The notes under the pieces were generated by a model. It ran no database searches and was not told where the DNA came from. It saw only the letters and a program-made list of their open reading frames with translations. A stretch of DNA of 23,761 nt, taken from a virus. The stretch is taken from positions 1 to 23,761 of IMG/VR virus record IMGVR_UViG_3300020445_000078. The stretch is one strand, 5' to 3'. This document shows, in pieces, positions 1,308 through 17,353 of this stretch. How positions within the stretch are numbered: the stretch's first letter is position 1; each line of letters starts with the position of its first letter. Position numbers and translations under genes: made by a program.

Positions 1308-4166
1308 TTATTTTTTGCCCAATAAATTTTTAATTTTTCTTGCCTTCCTTTTTACATCCAATGATTTCTGAACATTAGCATCAATCTCAGGATTATCTGT
1401 TGGTGGCATTGCCTCTGCACTATCAGGATCTAATTTATCATACTTATATCTTTGTCCATACTTTGGATGCATGCTTGTATTTGGATCCAATTCTGGTGGT
1501 GCTTCATTTGGATAACCTTTTGCAGATGGTTTGTTTGGATAATCAATCTCTGTATTCAACCGTTTTGCAACTTTCTTATATAAAGGATCTTTAGGTGCAT
1601 CAAGTGTTTCCTGTTCTTGTATATTTCTAAATGGACTTACATAAGTAGAATCTAATTTACGCATTGCTTTTTCGTGTGCAATGATATTAAAATGTTCTTG
1701 TATTTTTCTATTATTTAAATTTTTCTTAGATAAGTTTTCACTAACAATCTTATCAAAATATTGATGTCCATGTCCTACCTTATCGTAGACAACATTTATT
1801 CTTTCTTGTGATTCATATCCACCCCAATACTTATCCTTTGTTCTCCAAGTTTGACCTGCAGCATTCTTTGCCCTAACCATTTCATCACTCTTCTTAGATG
1901 CAGTTACATTAGGAGTGTTCTGTGGTTTATATTTACCTTTAAAATTAGGTCTATACTTTTCTAACTTTTGAGTCTTTGGTAATTCTTTTATTTCTTTTAG
2001 TGGTTGTGTTATCTCACGAAGGATTCTTTTTTTAGATTCATAAAGTACTGTACTTTCTGATTGTGTCTGTTGCTTATCAAGTGCCCAAGGATCATCCTTT
2101 GTTGATAATGGATTATCAGGATCCAAATCCTTATTACTAAAATCAAGTTTAGATATTCCAGTAATCATTGGTACGAAATTATCATCAACCCATTTCTTTT
2201 GATCTTTAGATAATTCCTTACCACCTACTGCCAATAATAATATTGAAAGTAACTGTGGATTAACACCCAATAAAGTCAAGTATGTACCCATCTCTGCAAT
2301 ATAATCTTCTTTATTCTTAGGCAATCCCATTTCTATTAATGCCCGACTCATATCTTCCTTCGGTGGAAGTGCTGATTCATTTTGTTCAGATATATATTCT
2401 TCCCCAAATCTAGATCTACTTCCTTTCATTGGTCCTTTACTACTTAAATTCTTTTTAAGTGCATTAATTTTTGGACCATAGAAATTATTCATAGTATCAT
2501 ATCCACCACCAACATCATAAGTAAGTTGAGCTCCCATTGCAATCCAACCCACAGGACCAGGTATTGCTTGGAATCCACCTAAAAGAGCACCAGCATAATC
2601 AGGTGGTTGCTTAGAAAGTCTAGCAGTAACATCAGCAACAACTAAACCAGCATTTAAAAAAGGTACAAACTTACCAACTCTTCCTAAAACACCTGCATTC
2701 TTAACACCTTTTTTAGCTAATGTTTCTAATGCTTGTTTTGAAGCAGGATCAGCAACATCAAAAGTTTTTGTAAGATTTTTTAATGCAATAGTATCACTGG
2801 TTCTTACTAACTGCTCTACACCTTTTGTTGGATCAAATCCTCTACTAACATTAGATCCCAACCAATTCTTTATACCTCTTACACCACCAGTACGTGGTAT
2901 AGCAGTAACTGTTCCACCTTCACCAGCATATTTTAAAGCAGTATTAAGATCAGGTGTAAAATATTGTGATGCATAATTTTTACCAGCAAGTCTCTTTAAC
3001 AAAGGATTCCAATCAGCAATCTTTGGAATTTTCTTACCAAATAATTTTAAATTAGATGCTCCTGTAAATGATGGTAAATAATCTACTCCTTTTTCAAGTC
3101 CCTTAAAAATATAATCACCACTACCAAACATGGCTTTATCAGTAAATCCTCTTAAAGTATTAAGTGCTCCTTTAAGTGGAGTATTAGAATACTGTCCAGA
3201 AGCAATATCCCATAAATTCTTAGCACCCTTCTTTGCTTTATCCCAAAGTAATCCCCATATATCCAGATCTCCAGAATCTCCTCCTTCTGGATCTGCTTGT
3301 GGTGTTTCAGTTCCTACGTCTGGACTTCCACCAGATCCTGTTGTTGCTTTTCCTTTTTCGACATCACCAGGACCATTTCCTCCACCATTAGTACCTGGAG
3401 CATTTCCACCTTTCATACCACCTGGAGAACCTGGTGGTTGATTATCCAGACCTTGTTGAGGAACACCCCCACTATAGAAGTAAGGAAAGTCTTTAGTAAA
3501 ATTATTCGCAGCCTTTTTATCTTTAAACCATTCTGCCATGGCTAAAGTAAAACTAGGATTATTTTGAGTAAACTGACCAGATGTACCATTCCATTGTCTT
3601 GGAGTATAAGTAGATCCACCCTGTACAATTGGATCATTAGTCCAATGTCCTTCTATCGTTGCTAATAAAACAAATTGTCTTGTATCTTTTTGAATATATC
3701 CTATATTTGTATAATCATCAGTACCATGATTATAAACATAACCATCAACTAATGGTCCTAAAATAAAATGTCTACTGTTTGGGGGTAAAGCAGTCTTTAC
3801 AGTTCCAGTATCAGGATCAATAAAACCATCAGTATTTGTGGAAGATTCTAATATTGAATCATTACTCATATCGGGTACATATTTTGTATCCCAATCACTA
3901 TCATCAATCCAATATCCTTGTGGTCTTATATACTCTGATGCACCAGATGTGCCAGGAACTCCTGATGGCCAATTACCATCTACATCAGGAACAAATCTTT
4001 TTGCAGGGGAAGGTGGATCATAACGAAATCCCGCAGGGTTTTTTGAATAAACCCCACCAGTATTCATATTTGGTATCTCATTGAGCATCTGCGTCTTTTC
4101 ATCCAACTTTGTAGTCTTATGGTTAGATCTAAGATGTCTTAATGCTCGTTTAAAATTTTTTGCCAC
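1308..4166 (-). CDS. Putative virion structural protein (952 aa, function unknown)
   Basis: I do not recognise a named family. The N-terminal 230 residues are Trp/Tyr/Asp-rich and look like a beta-structured domain. Residues 230-300 are a Gly/Pro-rich low-complexity linker. Residues 400-425 contain a segment (YFTPD, ALKYAGEGGTV) resembling the core of ADP-ribosyltransferase-like folds. Residues 490-550 are rich in hydrophobic and Gly residues, with potential membrane-interacting helices. The C-terminal 400 residues are very charged and Lys/Glu-rich. The start is GTG, since no ATG lies nearby upstream in frame; GGAG sits 12 nt upstream. A CATAAATA late-type box sits 23 nt before the start. Size, linker architecture and late box suggest a virion-associated or ejected protein, which is inference. 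Confidence 0.7.
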   Translation of the reverse strand: MAKNFKRALRHLRSNHKTTKLDEKTQMLNEIPNMNTGGVYSKNPAGFRYDPPSPAKRFVPDVDGNWPSGVPGTSGASEYIRPQGYWIDDSDWDTKYVPDMSNDSILESSTNTDGFIDPDTGTVKTALPPNSRHFILGPLVDGYVYNHGTDDYTNIGYIQKDTRQFVLLATIEGHWTNDPIVQGGSTYTPRQWNGTSGQFTQNNPSFTLAMAEWFKDKKAANNFTKDFPYFYSGGVPQQGLDNQPPGSPGGMKGGNAPGTNGGGNGPGDVEKGKATTGSGGSPDVGTETPQADPEGGDSGDLDIWGLLWDKAKKGAKNLWDIASGQYSNTPLKGALNTLRGFTDKAMFGSGDYIFKGLEKGVDYLPSFTGASNLKLFGKKIPKIADWNPLLKRLAGKNYASQYFTPDLNTALKYAGEGGTVTAIPRTGGVRGIKNWLGSNVSRGFDPTKGVEQLVRTSDTIALKNLTKTFDVADPASKQALETLAKKGVKNAGVLGRVGKFVPFLNAGLVVADVTARLSKQPPDYAGALLGGFQAIPGPVGWIAMGAQLTYDVGGGYDTMNNFYGPKINALKKNLSSKGPMKGSRSRFGEEYISEQNESALPPKEDMSRALIEMGLPKNKEDYIAEMGTYLTLLGVNPQLLSILLLAVGGKELSKDQKKWVDDNFVPMITGISKLDFSNKDLDPDNPLSTKDDPWALDKQQTQSESTVLYESKKRILREITQPLKEIKELPKTQKLEKYRPNFKGKYKPQNTPNVTASKKSDEMVRAKNAAGQTWRTKDKYWGGYESQERINVVYDKVGHGHQYFDKIVSENLSKKNLNNRKIQEHFNIIAHEKAMRKLDSTYVSPFRNIQEQETLDAPKDPLYKKVAKRLNTEIDYPNKPSAKGYPNEAPPELDPNTSMHPKYGQRYKYDKLDPDSAEAMPPTDNPEIDANVQKSLDVKRKARKIKNLLGKK

Positions 4167-4740: not shown

Positions 4741-4748
4741 TATTTATC
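4741..4748 (-). promoter_or_regulatory. T4-late-like promoter box of the oxygenase gene
   Basis: GATAAATA on the minus strand ends 16 nt before the oxygenase ATG and overlaps the end of the 61-aa gene. Together with the box at 4190-4197 it suggests that the oxygenase and 952-aa gene are late genes. Confidence 0.45.
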
Positions 4749-4929
4749 TTCTTCCTTCTTCTATTTCCACCTCTCTTGTTCTATTTCTTATAATGATTTG
4801 ATCATTAACATAATCAGCAGAGAACTCTAATTTATCATGATTATCCCACATGAGTTCTTCATATAATGCATTTAAACGATCCATGTCTTCCCACAGATCG
4901 TTTACGTGTCTATTGTCATCCTCTATCAA
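4744..4929 (-). CDS. Small conserved-looking hypothetical protein (61 aa)
   Basis: An acidic 61-aa protein with no recognised domain. It has a predicted helical first half ([19 protein letters not shown]) and a short beta-like segment (QIIIRN) before a charged tail. The start is TTG, in a TTGA overlap with the ferredoxin stop codon. GAGGAG lies 9 nt upstream, which strongly supports this non-ATG start and coupled translation with ferredoxin. Function unknown. Confidence 0.75.
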
Positions 4930-5216
4930 AGTATATTCTCCTCTTGTTCTGTTAATAGAGTAACATCAGAAGTAGGATAAGCAACACAAGTCAAAACAAA
5001 TCCATCCTCCATCTGTTCATCATCCAAGAAAGATTGTTCTTCTTGGTCTACAGTACCTGATACCAATTTCATAGCACATGATGAACACGCACCAGCACGA
5101 CAAGATGAAGGATGATCTAACCCTGCCTCCTCTAATGCTTCTAATATAAATTGGTCATTTGCACACTCAAAACTTTCTGTTGAACCGTCTGGTGTCTGAA
5201 GCGTAATAGTTGCCAT
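4926..5216 (-). CDS. petF: Plant-type [2Fe-2S] ferredoxin
   Basis: Ferredoxin accepts electrons from photosystem I and passes them to FNR and bilin reductases. The 96-aa protein has the exact cluster spacing Cys39, Cys44, Cys47 and Cys77 ([10 protein letters not shown] and LTCVAYP) and the usual acidic surface. Length matches cyanobacterial PetF. It has its own promoter just upstream and a coupled 61-aa gene downstream. In cyanophages this protein is thought to feed reductant to phage-encoded reductases; that role is not shown here. Confidence 0.95.
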
Positions 5217-5288: not shown

Positions 5289-5402
5289 CTAGTTATCCAC
5301 GATGGCACTCATCATAGTAACGGCAACTCCTACTACTATAACTGTACCTGAAAAGAACAGTAAGAACATCTGGAATGCGTCTTTCCACTGATATGGATTC
5401 AT
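5289..5402 (-). CDS. Small single-span membrane peptide (37 aa)
   Basis: A 37-aa reading frame beginning MNPYQWKDAF, followed by one hydrophobic helix (about residues 12-34) and ending in AIVDN. It has the size and shape of the small photosystem or cytochrome b6f subunits, but I cannot match it to a named Psb, Psa or Pet protein. It sits between other photosynthesis-related micro-genes and petF. No clear Shine-Dalgarno is visible. The hydrophobic block with polar caps argues that it is translated. Confidence 0.6.
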   Translation of the reverse strand: MNPYQWKDAFQMFLLFFSGTVIVVGVAVTMMSAIVDN

Positions 5403-5440
5403 TTTGTTGTAATTTGTCTACGACGGGTTTTCTTAATATT

Positions 5441-5554
5441 TTAGATTAGTCCTAATGTTCCTGCAGTTATTCCTACTGCAAGAAAAAATCCAAATTCCAA
5501 AAGACCATGTGCCTCTGATGGAATTTCTAAAAATTTTGAAGATAATTGAGTCAT
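5441..5554 (-). CDS. Small single-span membrane peptide (37 aa)
   Basis: A 37-aa frame opening MTQLSSKFLE, with an amphipathic lead (IPSEAHGLLE) and a C-terminal hydrophobic helix (FGFFLAVGITAGTLGLI). GAGGAG lies 11 nt before the ATG. Weakly reminiscent of PetM in helix composition, but not close enough to name. It lies in the hli/ferredoxin block, so a thylakoid location is the most likely inference. Confidence 0.62.
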   Translation of the reverse strand: MTQLSSKFLEIPSEAHGLLEFGFFLAVGITAGTLGLI

Positions 5555-5582
5555 TTAAGCTTGTGCTCCTCAGCTAGTAAAT

Positions 5583-5657
5583 TTATGAAAATACGAATGG
5601 TAATCCATTAATTGCTGTGTAACCTAATACACACCCAAATAAAATTTGATAGATCAT
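5583..5657 (-). CDS. Very small membrane peptide (24 aa)
   Basis: A 24-aa frame that is almost entirely one hydrophobic helix (ILFGCVLGYTAINGLPFVF). The ATG overlaps the TGA stop of the preceding 59-aa gene (ATGA), and AAGGAG sits just upstream at the right distance. Both features support translation. Function unknown. Confidence 0.6.
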   Translation of the reverse strand: MIYQILFGCVLGYTAINGLPFVFS

Positions 5658-5833
5658 GTTCCTGCTCCTTGATAAACTGGTGTCATAATTCCGCCTCCTT
5701 CATCATCATCGTCATCATCAGAAAATGTTCTGAGTAACAATTCAATCAAGACTAAAGCAGCCATGGGATAAAAAACCCAGAGGACTGCTACTAGTGGTGA
5801 AATTGTATCTGTTGCGGCTGCTAAGTCGCCCAT
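5654..5833 (-). CDS. Small membrane protein with acidic tail (59 aa)
   Basis: The protein has an N-terminal hydrophobic span (about residues 11-35, SPLVAVLWVFYPMAALVLIE), then six consecutive Asp residues and a Gly-rich end (EGGGIMTPVYQGAGT). It is translationally coupled to the 24-aa gene by an ATGA overlap. The topology, one helix followed by a strongly acidic tail, resembles small thylakoid subunits such as PsaI only in general shape. No family could be assigned. No obvious Shine-Dalgarno precedes the ATG. Confidence 0.65.
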   Translation of the reverse strand: MGDLAAATDTISPLVAVLWVFYPMAALVLIELLLRTFSDDDDDDEGGGIMTPVYQGAGT

Positions 5834-5872: not shown

Positions 5873-5974
5873 TTATGTAAAGTATTTGAAGTGGGTATAT
5901 GCACCTACGACTGCCCAAAAAGCAACCATTGCAAACCTACCATTGGCTCTCTGCCAAATTGCTACGTTAGACAT
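5873..5974 (-). CDS. hli: High-light-inducible peptide, short (33 aa)
   Basis: Hli proteins are single-helix relatives of LHC proteins that bind chlorophyll and carotenoid and protect PSII. This 33-aa peptide is essentially just the helix (WQRANGRFAMVAFWAVVGAY). It keeps NGR-x-AM but has Gln where the family has the chlorophyll-binding Glu (ExxNGR). AGGAGT lies about 9 nt upstream of the ATG. It directly follows a second short Hli gene, the two starting and ending within two bases of each other. Confidence 0.85.
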   Translation of the reverse strand: MSNVAIWQRANGRFAMVAFWAVVGAYTHFKYFT

Positions 5975-5975
5975 C

Positions 5976-6083
5976 TTAAAATACTCCTGGAATAATTTGA
6001 CCTGTGAATGAGTAAGCACCTAGTGCTGCTACTATTCCGATCATGGCCATCCAGCCATTAAACTTTTCTGCTTCTGGGGTCAT
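5976..6083 (-). CDS. hli: High-light-inducible peptide, short (35 aa)
   Basis: A 35-aa Hli with the classic sequence AEKFNGWMAMIG and the C-terminal TGQIIPGVF. It retains the Glu and Asn of ExxNGR, but the Arg is replaced by Trp (NGW). AAAGGAG lies at good spacing before the ATG. Only one base separates its stop from the ATG of the 33-aa Hli. Expected to insert in the thylakoid near newly made PSII. Confidence 0.9.
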   Translation of the reverse strand: MTPEAEKFNGWMAMIGIVAALGAYSFTGQIIPGVF

Positions 6084-6157: not shown

Positions 6158-6370
6158 CTAAAAGATACCAGGCATAACTGCTCCGAATAGGATATAGTTA
6201 TGAACTGCTGCAAAGAAACCAATCATCGCTAGACGACCATTGAGTTGCTCTGCTTCTTTCCAGTAGTCGTGATTAGTATCAACTCTTATCTCTGGTTCAG
6301 CAGCAAAGATGTTTTGCTTACCATACTCAGTAGTTGTATACCTCTTCATACTGGGTGTTGAACTTGTCAT
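6158..6370 (-). CDS. hli: High-light-inducible protein (70 aa)
   Basis: The C-terminal half is a complete Hli helix with an intact chlorophyll-binding motif (EAEQLNGRLAMIGFF) and the PGIF ending. The first 40 residues are a hydrophilic, Thr/Ser-rich extension. I take the start at 6370 (MTSSTPSMKR). A longer frame beginning TTG at 6406 would start upstream of the predicted transcription start and overlap the promoter -10 region, so it is rejected. The leader of about 18 nt carries a CGTTT/AAACG inverted repeat and no Shine-Dalgarno. First gene of the photosynthesis block. Confidence 0.9.
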   Translation of the reverse strand: MTSSTPSMKRYTTTEYGKQNIFAAEPEIRVDTNHDYWKEAEQLNGRLAMIGFFAAVHNYILFGAVMPGIF

Positions 6371-15742: not shown

Positions 15743-16508
15743 AACTCAAACTTTCTACAAAATTAGAAGCTTCCATGTTTGCAAACTCTGGATCTCCAGA
15801 TGCTAAGAACGCAGCATAAAATGCATCTCCTGCACCCATAGTACTTACAGCATCTTCAACTTTATATCCTTCATAATCTATACCCTTAAAAGAACACCCT
15901 TTGTCTCCTTTAGTAACACATATATTACTATCTCTACCAACTGATCGAGATTCTTTTTCATTACATACGATATAATCTACCTTATTATATAAGAAGTAAT
16001 TTGATTGACGACTTGATATTTGAGATGATGCATATGTTTCAATACCTTTATGCTTTACGCAAGTATTAATAAAAGGTTCAGTTATTAATCCACATCTATA
16101 ATCTGAAAAAGCAACTATATCATAATCAGATAAATTAACATCAATTAAAGGATGAAGGTTTTCATCATTTACACTATTAACTTGAAGATATTTGTATGTA
16201 GAATCCCCACGAGATACCCAATACCTACTCTTAGTATTATTTTTACCTTGATAGAAATTAAGAATCTTTGCTCCAGTAGAACTAATAGAATTAACATGTT
16301 CTTCTGATACAGAAGTTAAAAAGGTAACATTTAAATCATAATCTGCTAAACGTCTTGCAACATTAGCTGCACCACCATAGTTAAATCTGTTTGTATCATA
16401 AACAGTTTTTAATGTAGGAGTCTCTAGAGATAGACCTGATGCAATAAGAAATATATCCTCATCAATTATGGTATCTCCAACTATTAGAAATTTTATATCT
16501 TCTCGCAT
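15735..16508 (-). CDS. PfkB-family sugar kinase, HldE kinase-domain-like
   Basis: A ribokinase-fold kinase of 257 aa. GGAANVARRLA lies at 45-55, as in the D-glycero-beta-D-manno-heptose-7-phosphate kinase domain of HldE/RfaE. The anion-hole/catalytic-base motif MGAGDAF lies at 224-230, ending in Asp228. It is about 50 residues shorter than the HldE kinase domain. The matching nucleotidyltransferase half of HldE sits in the preceding gene, fused to an isomerase, so the classical bifunctional enzyme is split and reshuffled here. Likely phosphorylates C1 of a sugar-5- or 7-phosphate (inference). The ATG overlaps the previous gene by 16 nt. Confidence 0.82.
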   Translation of the reverse strand: MREDIKFLIVGDTIIDEDIFLIASGLSLETPTLKTVYDTNRFNYGGAANVARRLADYDLNVTFLTSVSEEHVNSISSTGAKILNFYQGKNNTKSRYWVSRGDSTYKYLQVNSVNDENLHPLIDVNLSDYDIVAFSDYRCGLITEPFINTCVKHKGIETYASSQISSRQSNYFLYNKVDYIVCNEKESRSVGRDSNICVTKGDKGCSFKGIDYEGYKVEDAVSTMGAGDAFYAAFLASGDPEFANMEASNFVESLSYV

Positions 16509-17353
16509 GACCCCATATTCCTAATTTTTTCCATAGTATTAGTTGTCGAATAATCCCCTATTAGTGGATAAACTTTAACCTGTATTGTATCTGGTATTTC
16601 ATCCCTTTCTCTTAATTCATCAGCAGTCCACTCTGATCCTTTAACAAGAACATCAGGACACAATGTTTTATATAAAGTTTTAAGTTCTTCAGAAGAATTA
16701 AAAGTAACTACAGAATCAACGTACATATTAGTCTCTAAAACTTTTCTACGATCTTCTTCATTATTAATTGGTCTATCTTCTCCTTTTAGTAGTCTAACTC
16801 TTTCATCAGAATCAATAGCAACTATAAGTTTATCTCCTTGATTCTTAGAAAATTTTAAAAGTTCAATATGTCCTTTATGCAATATATCAAAAACACCATT
16901 AGTAAGAACTATACCACTATGATCATCTATCTTCTCTACTCTCTTAACATGTCTTCCTTCTCCCCATGCTTCATCTAACCACATCTTACTCATCTCTCTC
17001 ATTTCTACCTGAGAAGATAACCAAGATCCTAAACAAAGAACATTTGAATCATTATGTTCTCTTGATTTAACAGCAGTAAGTTCATTATGTGCAAGAACAG
17101 CACGAACTCCAGAGAAACGATTAGCAACAATACTCATCCCAACTCCAGTACCACATATAAGAATACCTCTGTCTGCTTCTTTATTGCCAACTATCGTTGA
17201 TAACTGAGCAGCATAATCAACATAGTCCACACTAACTTCTGGAGTATAGGGACCAATATCAATAACTCTGTAACCTTCTCCTTTCAGATAGGTTTTCAAT
17301 TGCTGTTTGTCTTCTACGCCATTATGGTCAGAAGAAATAATAATTGTTTTCAT
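16493..17353 (-). CDS. Fusion of RpiB/LacAB isomerase and HldE-type nucleotidyltransferase
   Basis: Residues 1-140 form a complete RpiB/LacAB sugar-phosphate isomerase: SSDHNG (7-12), GILICGTGVGMSIVANR (63-79) with the catalytic Cys67, and SREHNDSNVL (98-107). Residues 148-286 form a cytidylyl/adenylyltransferase domain: TNGVFDILHKGHIELL (151-166) with the HxGH signature (H159, H162), DSDERVRLLKG, and a terminal STTN motif as in RfaE domain II. RpiB interconverts aldose and ketose phosphates; RfaE-II-type domains make NDP-sugars from sugar-1-phosphates. The start is ATG in ATGA overlap with the GT11 gene. The domain pairing brings the first and last steps of an NDP-sugar pathway into one chain. 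Each domain is well supported; substrate unknown. Confidence 0.88.
   Translation of the reverse strand: MKTIIISSDHNGVEDKQQLKTYLKGEGYRVIDIGPYTPEVSVDYVDYAAQLSTIVGNKEADRGILICGTGVGMSIVANRFSGVRAVLAHNELTAVKSREHNDSNVLCLGSWLSSQVEMREMSKMWLDEAWGEGRHVKRVEKIDDHSGIVLTNGVFDILHKGHIELLKFSKNQGDKLIVAIDSDERVRLLKGEDRPINNEEDRRKVLETNMYVDSVVTFNSSEELKTLYKTLCPDVLVKGSEWTADELRERDEIPDTIQVKVYPLIGDYSTTNTMEKIRNMGSCEKI

Follow-up and report, generated by a model that had tools for sequence, protein, structure and literature searches.

The 33-residue high light inducible (Hli) peptide of the marine cyanophage analysed here belongs, as judged from sequence comparison, to a widespread and conserved phage Hli subfamily that lacks the motif Glu and is almost always coupled to an upstream Glu-bearing Hli. 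Among the photosynthesis genes that marine cyanophages carry, the hli genes are very common, and the members of the family are usually regarded as interchangeable. That one conserved subfamily lacks a chlorophyll-ligand residue and is almost always translated immediately behind another Hli suggests a division of labour in phage Hli arrays. This subfamily also provides a natural experiment on which half of the Glu-Arg pair is needed in an Hlip dimer.

The window, a virus record of 23,761 bases from IMG/VR, encodes its hli array on the minus strand. The array is headed by an ATG-started 70-aa Hli, AEQLNGRLAMIGFF (6158..6370), which has the intact motif AEQLNGRLAM. It is followed by a 35-aa Hli of the NGW subfamily, MTPEAEKFNGWMAMIGIVAALGAYSFTGQIIPGVF (5976..6083), in which Glu is retained and Trp stands where Arg is expected (EKFNGWMAM), and by a 33-aa Hli, MSNVAIWQRANGRFAMVAFWAVVGAYTHFKYFT (5873..5974), in which Gln stands where Glu is expected and Arg is retained (IWQRANGRFAM, with a KYFT tail). 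The stop codon of the 35-mer (5976-5978) and the ATG of the 33-mer (5972-5974) are separated by one nucleotide, and a Shine-Dalgarno-like AGGAG is located 7-9 nt 5' of each ORF. On these points the earlier note, which described complementary losses of the two charged residues in coding regions one base apart and an intact Hli upstream, is confirmed. Downstream of the 33-mer is a gene for a 59-aa small membrane peptide of unknown function (5654..5833, minus strand; phrog_7843, 4.8e-27), which has 183 relatives among viral contigs and served as the downstream synteny anchor.

All three Hlis match phrog_178, the profile of the high light inducible protein: the 70-mer with 2.2e-21, the 35-mer with 3.6e-18 and the 33-mer with 2.9e-4; the P-SSM2 counterpart of the 33-mer matches it with 6e-15. 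The 70-mer has an additional, marginal match to Pfam PF00504 (E 1.8e-4, score 22.5 with a cut-off of 22.3). By profile similarity, the 70-mer and the 35-mer are clear Hlis, and the 33-mer is a weak yet real one. Neither short peptide has the complete ExxNxR chlorophyll-binding motif, Trp replacing Arg in the 35-mer (EKFNGW) and Gln replacing Glu in the 33-mer; in terms of sequence the 35-mer is an NGW-subfamily Hli homologue without the strict motif. A reading of the two short genes as chance ORFs was ruled out by the phrog_178 matches and by purifying selection in the 33-mer family.

Members of the Glu-less subfamily were collected from IMG/VR contigs by DNA-pattern and gene-neighbourhood searches and were counted by a relaxed motif together with profile scores. 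The resulting set contains 181 distinct loci that encode 146 different peptides, where many contigs are fragments and the counts are those of distinct sequences among the matches listed, not of independent events. In this set, defined as Glu-less with Arg, the motif Arg (position 6) is kept in 181/181 distinct loci, and the Glu site holds 11 different residues (Q 79, L 26, W 19, N 17, S 10, I 8, V 7, A 6, F 5, T 3, M 1), with 0 Glu and 0 Asp. The scan with the DNA pattern IWxRANGRFAM left the Glu position open, and no Glu-bearing member was found among the loci read. The motif Asn position is occupied by Asn in 154 loci and by Gln in 27, and the Ala after the motif is changed to Thr or Ser in 32/181; variants among the orthologues include RANGRFTM, RANGRATM and AQGR. 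Purifying selection on the subfamily is evident from the dN/dS values of approximately 0.19 in the KYF-tailed branch and 0.29 in the PG-tailed branch (105 and 57 sequences, respectively).

The 33-aa ORF could in principle be a decaying, functionless duplicate, as it is very short, has lost a motif residue and is absent in 6 of 96 syntenic arrays. However, this reading is already disfavoured by the purifying selection, the start/stop coupling is conserved, and the same arrangement is shared by myovirus arrays and by podovirus arrays linked to psbA, that of NATL1A-7 among them; we therefore consider decay very improbable.

Within the genomes searched, the Glu-less subfamily appears to be restricted to phages. 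The basis of this assignment is a single protein query, which found no Glu-less relative in 266 Prochlorococcus genomes at E <= 1e-4, with intact host Hlis reached only at about 1e-3, and a single DNA pattern, RANGRF, which had three matches in 400 host-family genomes, all of them intact ERANGRF.

The start of the Glu-less gene lies at -1 to +1 nt from the stop of the upstream Hli in 165/170 loci (97%), and in five loci the distance is about 200 nt. Tight coupling is also observed for about one third of other Hli neighbour pairs (120/339 within -4 to +1 nt). The upstream Hli retains Glu at each of the 171 readable loci, so that the Glu-less member was always found next to a Glu-bearing Hli; such a neighbour is expected anyway because nearly all other Hlis carry Glu. 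The Arg position of the same upstream Hlis is more variable, being Trp in 126 loci, Arg in 27 and Gln in 18. At 24 of the 27 loci with an Arg-bearing partner, there is no Arg-less Hli within 1.5 kb. On the tree of Glu-less peptides, which is weak as the peptides are short, the Arg status of the partner changed at least 10 times. A covariation between the Glu-site residue and a partner Trp (54/99 vs 3/43, p = 2e-8) was considered and rejected, as phylogenetically independent pairs gave no support.

Hlips must dimerise via ExxNxR for chlorophyll binding (PMC8617258), and natural Hlip heterodimers, e.g. HliC-HliD, exist (PMC12142464). It is close to an even call, and slightly short of one, that the 33-mer is a phage-restricted Glu-less Hli that acts through its Arg as a heterodimer partner of the upstream Glu-bearing Hli. 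From the observed sequence conservation, coupling and Glu-bearing partner, we infer dimerisation, pigment binding and a role along the following lines. The motif Glu would have been permanently lost from the subfamily with the motif Arg kept, and the 33-mer would be made in step with the directly upstream Hli via their abutting or overlapping stop and start codons. A Glu-less homodimer would be without both Glu-Arg bridges, and pairing with a Glu-bearing Hli would restore one of them, the invariant Arg of the 33-mer bridging to the Glu of the upstream Hli. The second, symmetry-related contact could be dispensable; here it would be formed by Trp and Gln, and in relatives by Arg, Trp or Gln and any of the 11 non-acidic residues. 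The partner's own Arg would then face nothing acidic, which would explain the presence of Arg, Trp or Gln at that position.

We speculate that, compared with a symmetrical dimer, the asymmetric pair might bind a smaller or different set of pigments and could protect the photosynthetic membrane during infection. The fuller proposal, that a cyanophage-dedicated Glu-less subunit, not detected in the searched host genomes, pairs with any Glu-bearing Hli encoded directly upstream to give an asymmetric heterodimer that binds pigment, is possible, if somewhat doubtful. If it is true, phages possess an Hli complex whose chlorophyll site is altered.

Alternatively, the Glu-less peptide could be a conserved paralogue that is no longer functional in an Hli dimer and docks on a different membrane partner, for example ChlG, a subunit of photosystem II or a protein of the host, its adjacency to another Hli being the result of tandem duplication. 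Hlips are known to bind ChlG, Ycf39 and CP47 modules (PMC12142464), hli arrays grow and shrink, and the substitutions of the motif Asn and of the following Ala suggest relaxed pigment ligation. Nevertheless, the invariant Arg and the near-constant coupling to a Glu-bearing Hli would better suit a paired role, and docking outside an Hli dimer seems rather unlikely to us.

Relatives of the 35-mer were found by tblastn in 520 phage records, and the ExFNGWxAM pattern matches at least 120 stretches of viral contigs, with a subfamily dN/dS of 0.10. A search of viral contigs for the Arg version of this peptide context (EAExFNGR) found none; together with the number of NGW stretches, this indicates that Trp at the Arg position is a fixed feature of the NGW subfamily and did not arise by recent loss in this phage. 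The FNGW pattern is also present in 230/266 Prochlorococcus genomes. Of the viral NGW loci that the pattern scan yielded and that extend far enough downstream, at least 23/96 are followed by a Glu-less Hli; the value is a minimum, as loci with the same sequence as one already counted were removed. None of the 110 host FNGW genes with room downstream is followed by a Glu-less Hli.

The earlier note suggested that the 35-mer and the 33-mer could be obligate partners in a heterodimer that retains a single salt bridge; in this model, their losses evolved as a complementary pair. The two losses are indeed adjacent and coupled in the window, and in a different Hli subfamily podovirus-type arrays combine an NGQ peptide and QRANGR. 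The syntenic arrays, stretches with the 70-aa Hli at one end and the 59-aa gene at the other, number 96; both types occur in 82 of them, the Arg-less type alone in six and the Glu-less type alone in eight, and no array lacks both. Co-occurrence of the two losses is thus usual in syntenic relatives, but they are not interdependent: there is no association beyond base rates in these arrays (Fisher p = 1), and each loss is common alone. Arg loss without Glu loss is observed in the six arrays, in the podovirus genomes P-SSP7 and P-SSP3, with a single Hli each, of NGW type, in the 230 Prochlorococcus genomes, and at 51 NGQ loci that have room for a Glu-less neighbour and lack it. Glu loss without Arg loss is observed in the eight arrays, at the 27/171 loci with an Arg-bearing partner, and in the complete genome of NATL1A-7, which encodes exactly two Hlis (ELQNGR and QRANGR) and no Arg-less one. 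As a family rule, the obligate pair is already contradicted by these orthologues with one member alone, which the note itself had named as counter-evidence and which occur in both directions, and we regard the model as improbable. A single-salt-bridge dimer is possible in this phage, although it would not be obligate for the family.

The hli array of the window shares its gene order with the hli arrays of P-SSM2 and P-SSM7 (hli03, hli04 and hli05). The 35-mer resembles hli03, and the syntenic counterpart of the 33-mer is hli04, a Glu-less member (IFLRANGRAAM) that overlaps the stop of the NGW-type hli03 by one base. In contrast to the 33-mer, hli04 has Leu at the Glu site and not Gln, and a PGI-type tail in place of KYFT. 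The two phages also differ from the window by a further Arg-less Hli, hli05, which is next in the array. This gene represents a second Arg-less subfamily, of Ile type; in both phages it reads EKWNGI and overlaps the Glu-less hli04 (3221-3364 in both loci).

In NATL1A-7 and its relatives, the podovirus hli pair is located beside psbA, and the Glu-less IWQRANGRFAM gene abuts the upstream Hli as in the window. The upstream partner keeps Arg in NATL1A-7 (ELQNGR) and has Gln in related contigs (ERTNGQ), in contrast to Trp in the window. The multicopy NGW Hlis of Prochlorococcus share the MTPEAE-FNGW peptide type with the 35-mer, but differ in that no Glu-less relative was found in the 266 genomes. 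The subunits of Synechocystis Hlip heterodimers carry the full motif, unlike those of the window, each of which is without one of the two charged residues. HliC-HliD, and HliA/B with HliC, of Synechocystis are likewise single-helix LHC-like proteins and form heterodimers that bind chlorophyll and carotenoid (PMC12142464).

The gene content of the window includes psbA, ferredoxin, transaldolase and a sugar gene cluster, a cyanomyovirus-like set. The Hli array is followed by more very short membrane-peptide ORFs (5289-5833, minus strand) of 59 aa (phrog_7843), 24 aa, 37 aa (phrog_17067) and 37 aa, none of them with a known function. After these comes the ferredoxin gene (4926-5216), directly downstream of which is a 61-aa ORF that matches DUF7191 (4744-4929, minus strand; PF23821, 1.3e-24). 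In the sugar-modification cluster, a single ORF (16493-17353, minus strand) fuses a ribose/galactose isomerase domain (LacAB_rpiB) and a cytidylyltransferase-like domain, and is accompanied by a GDP-mannose dehydratase and an epimerase.
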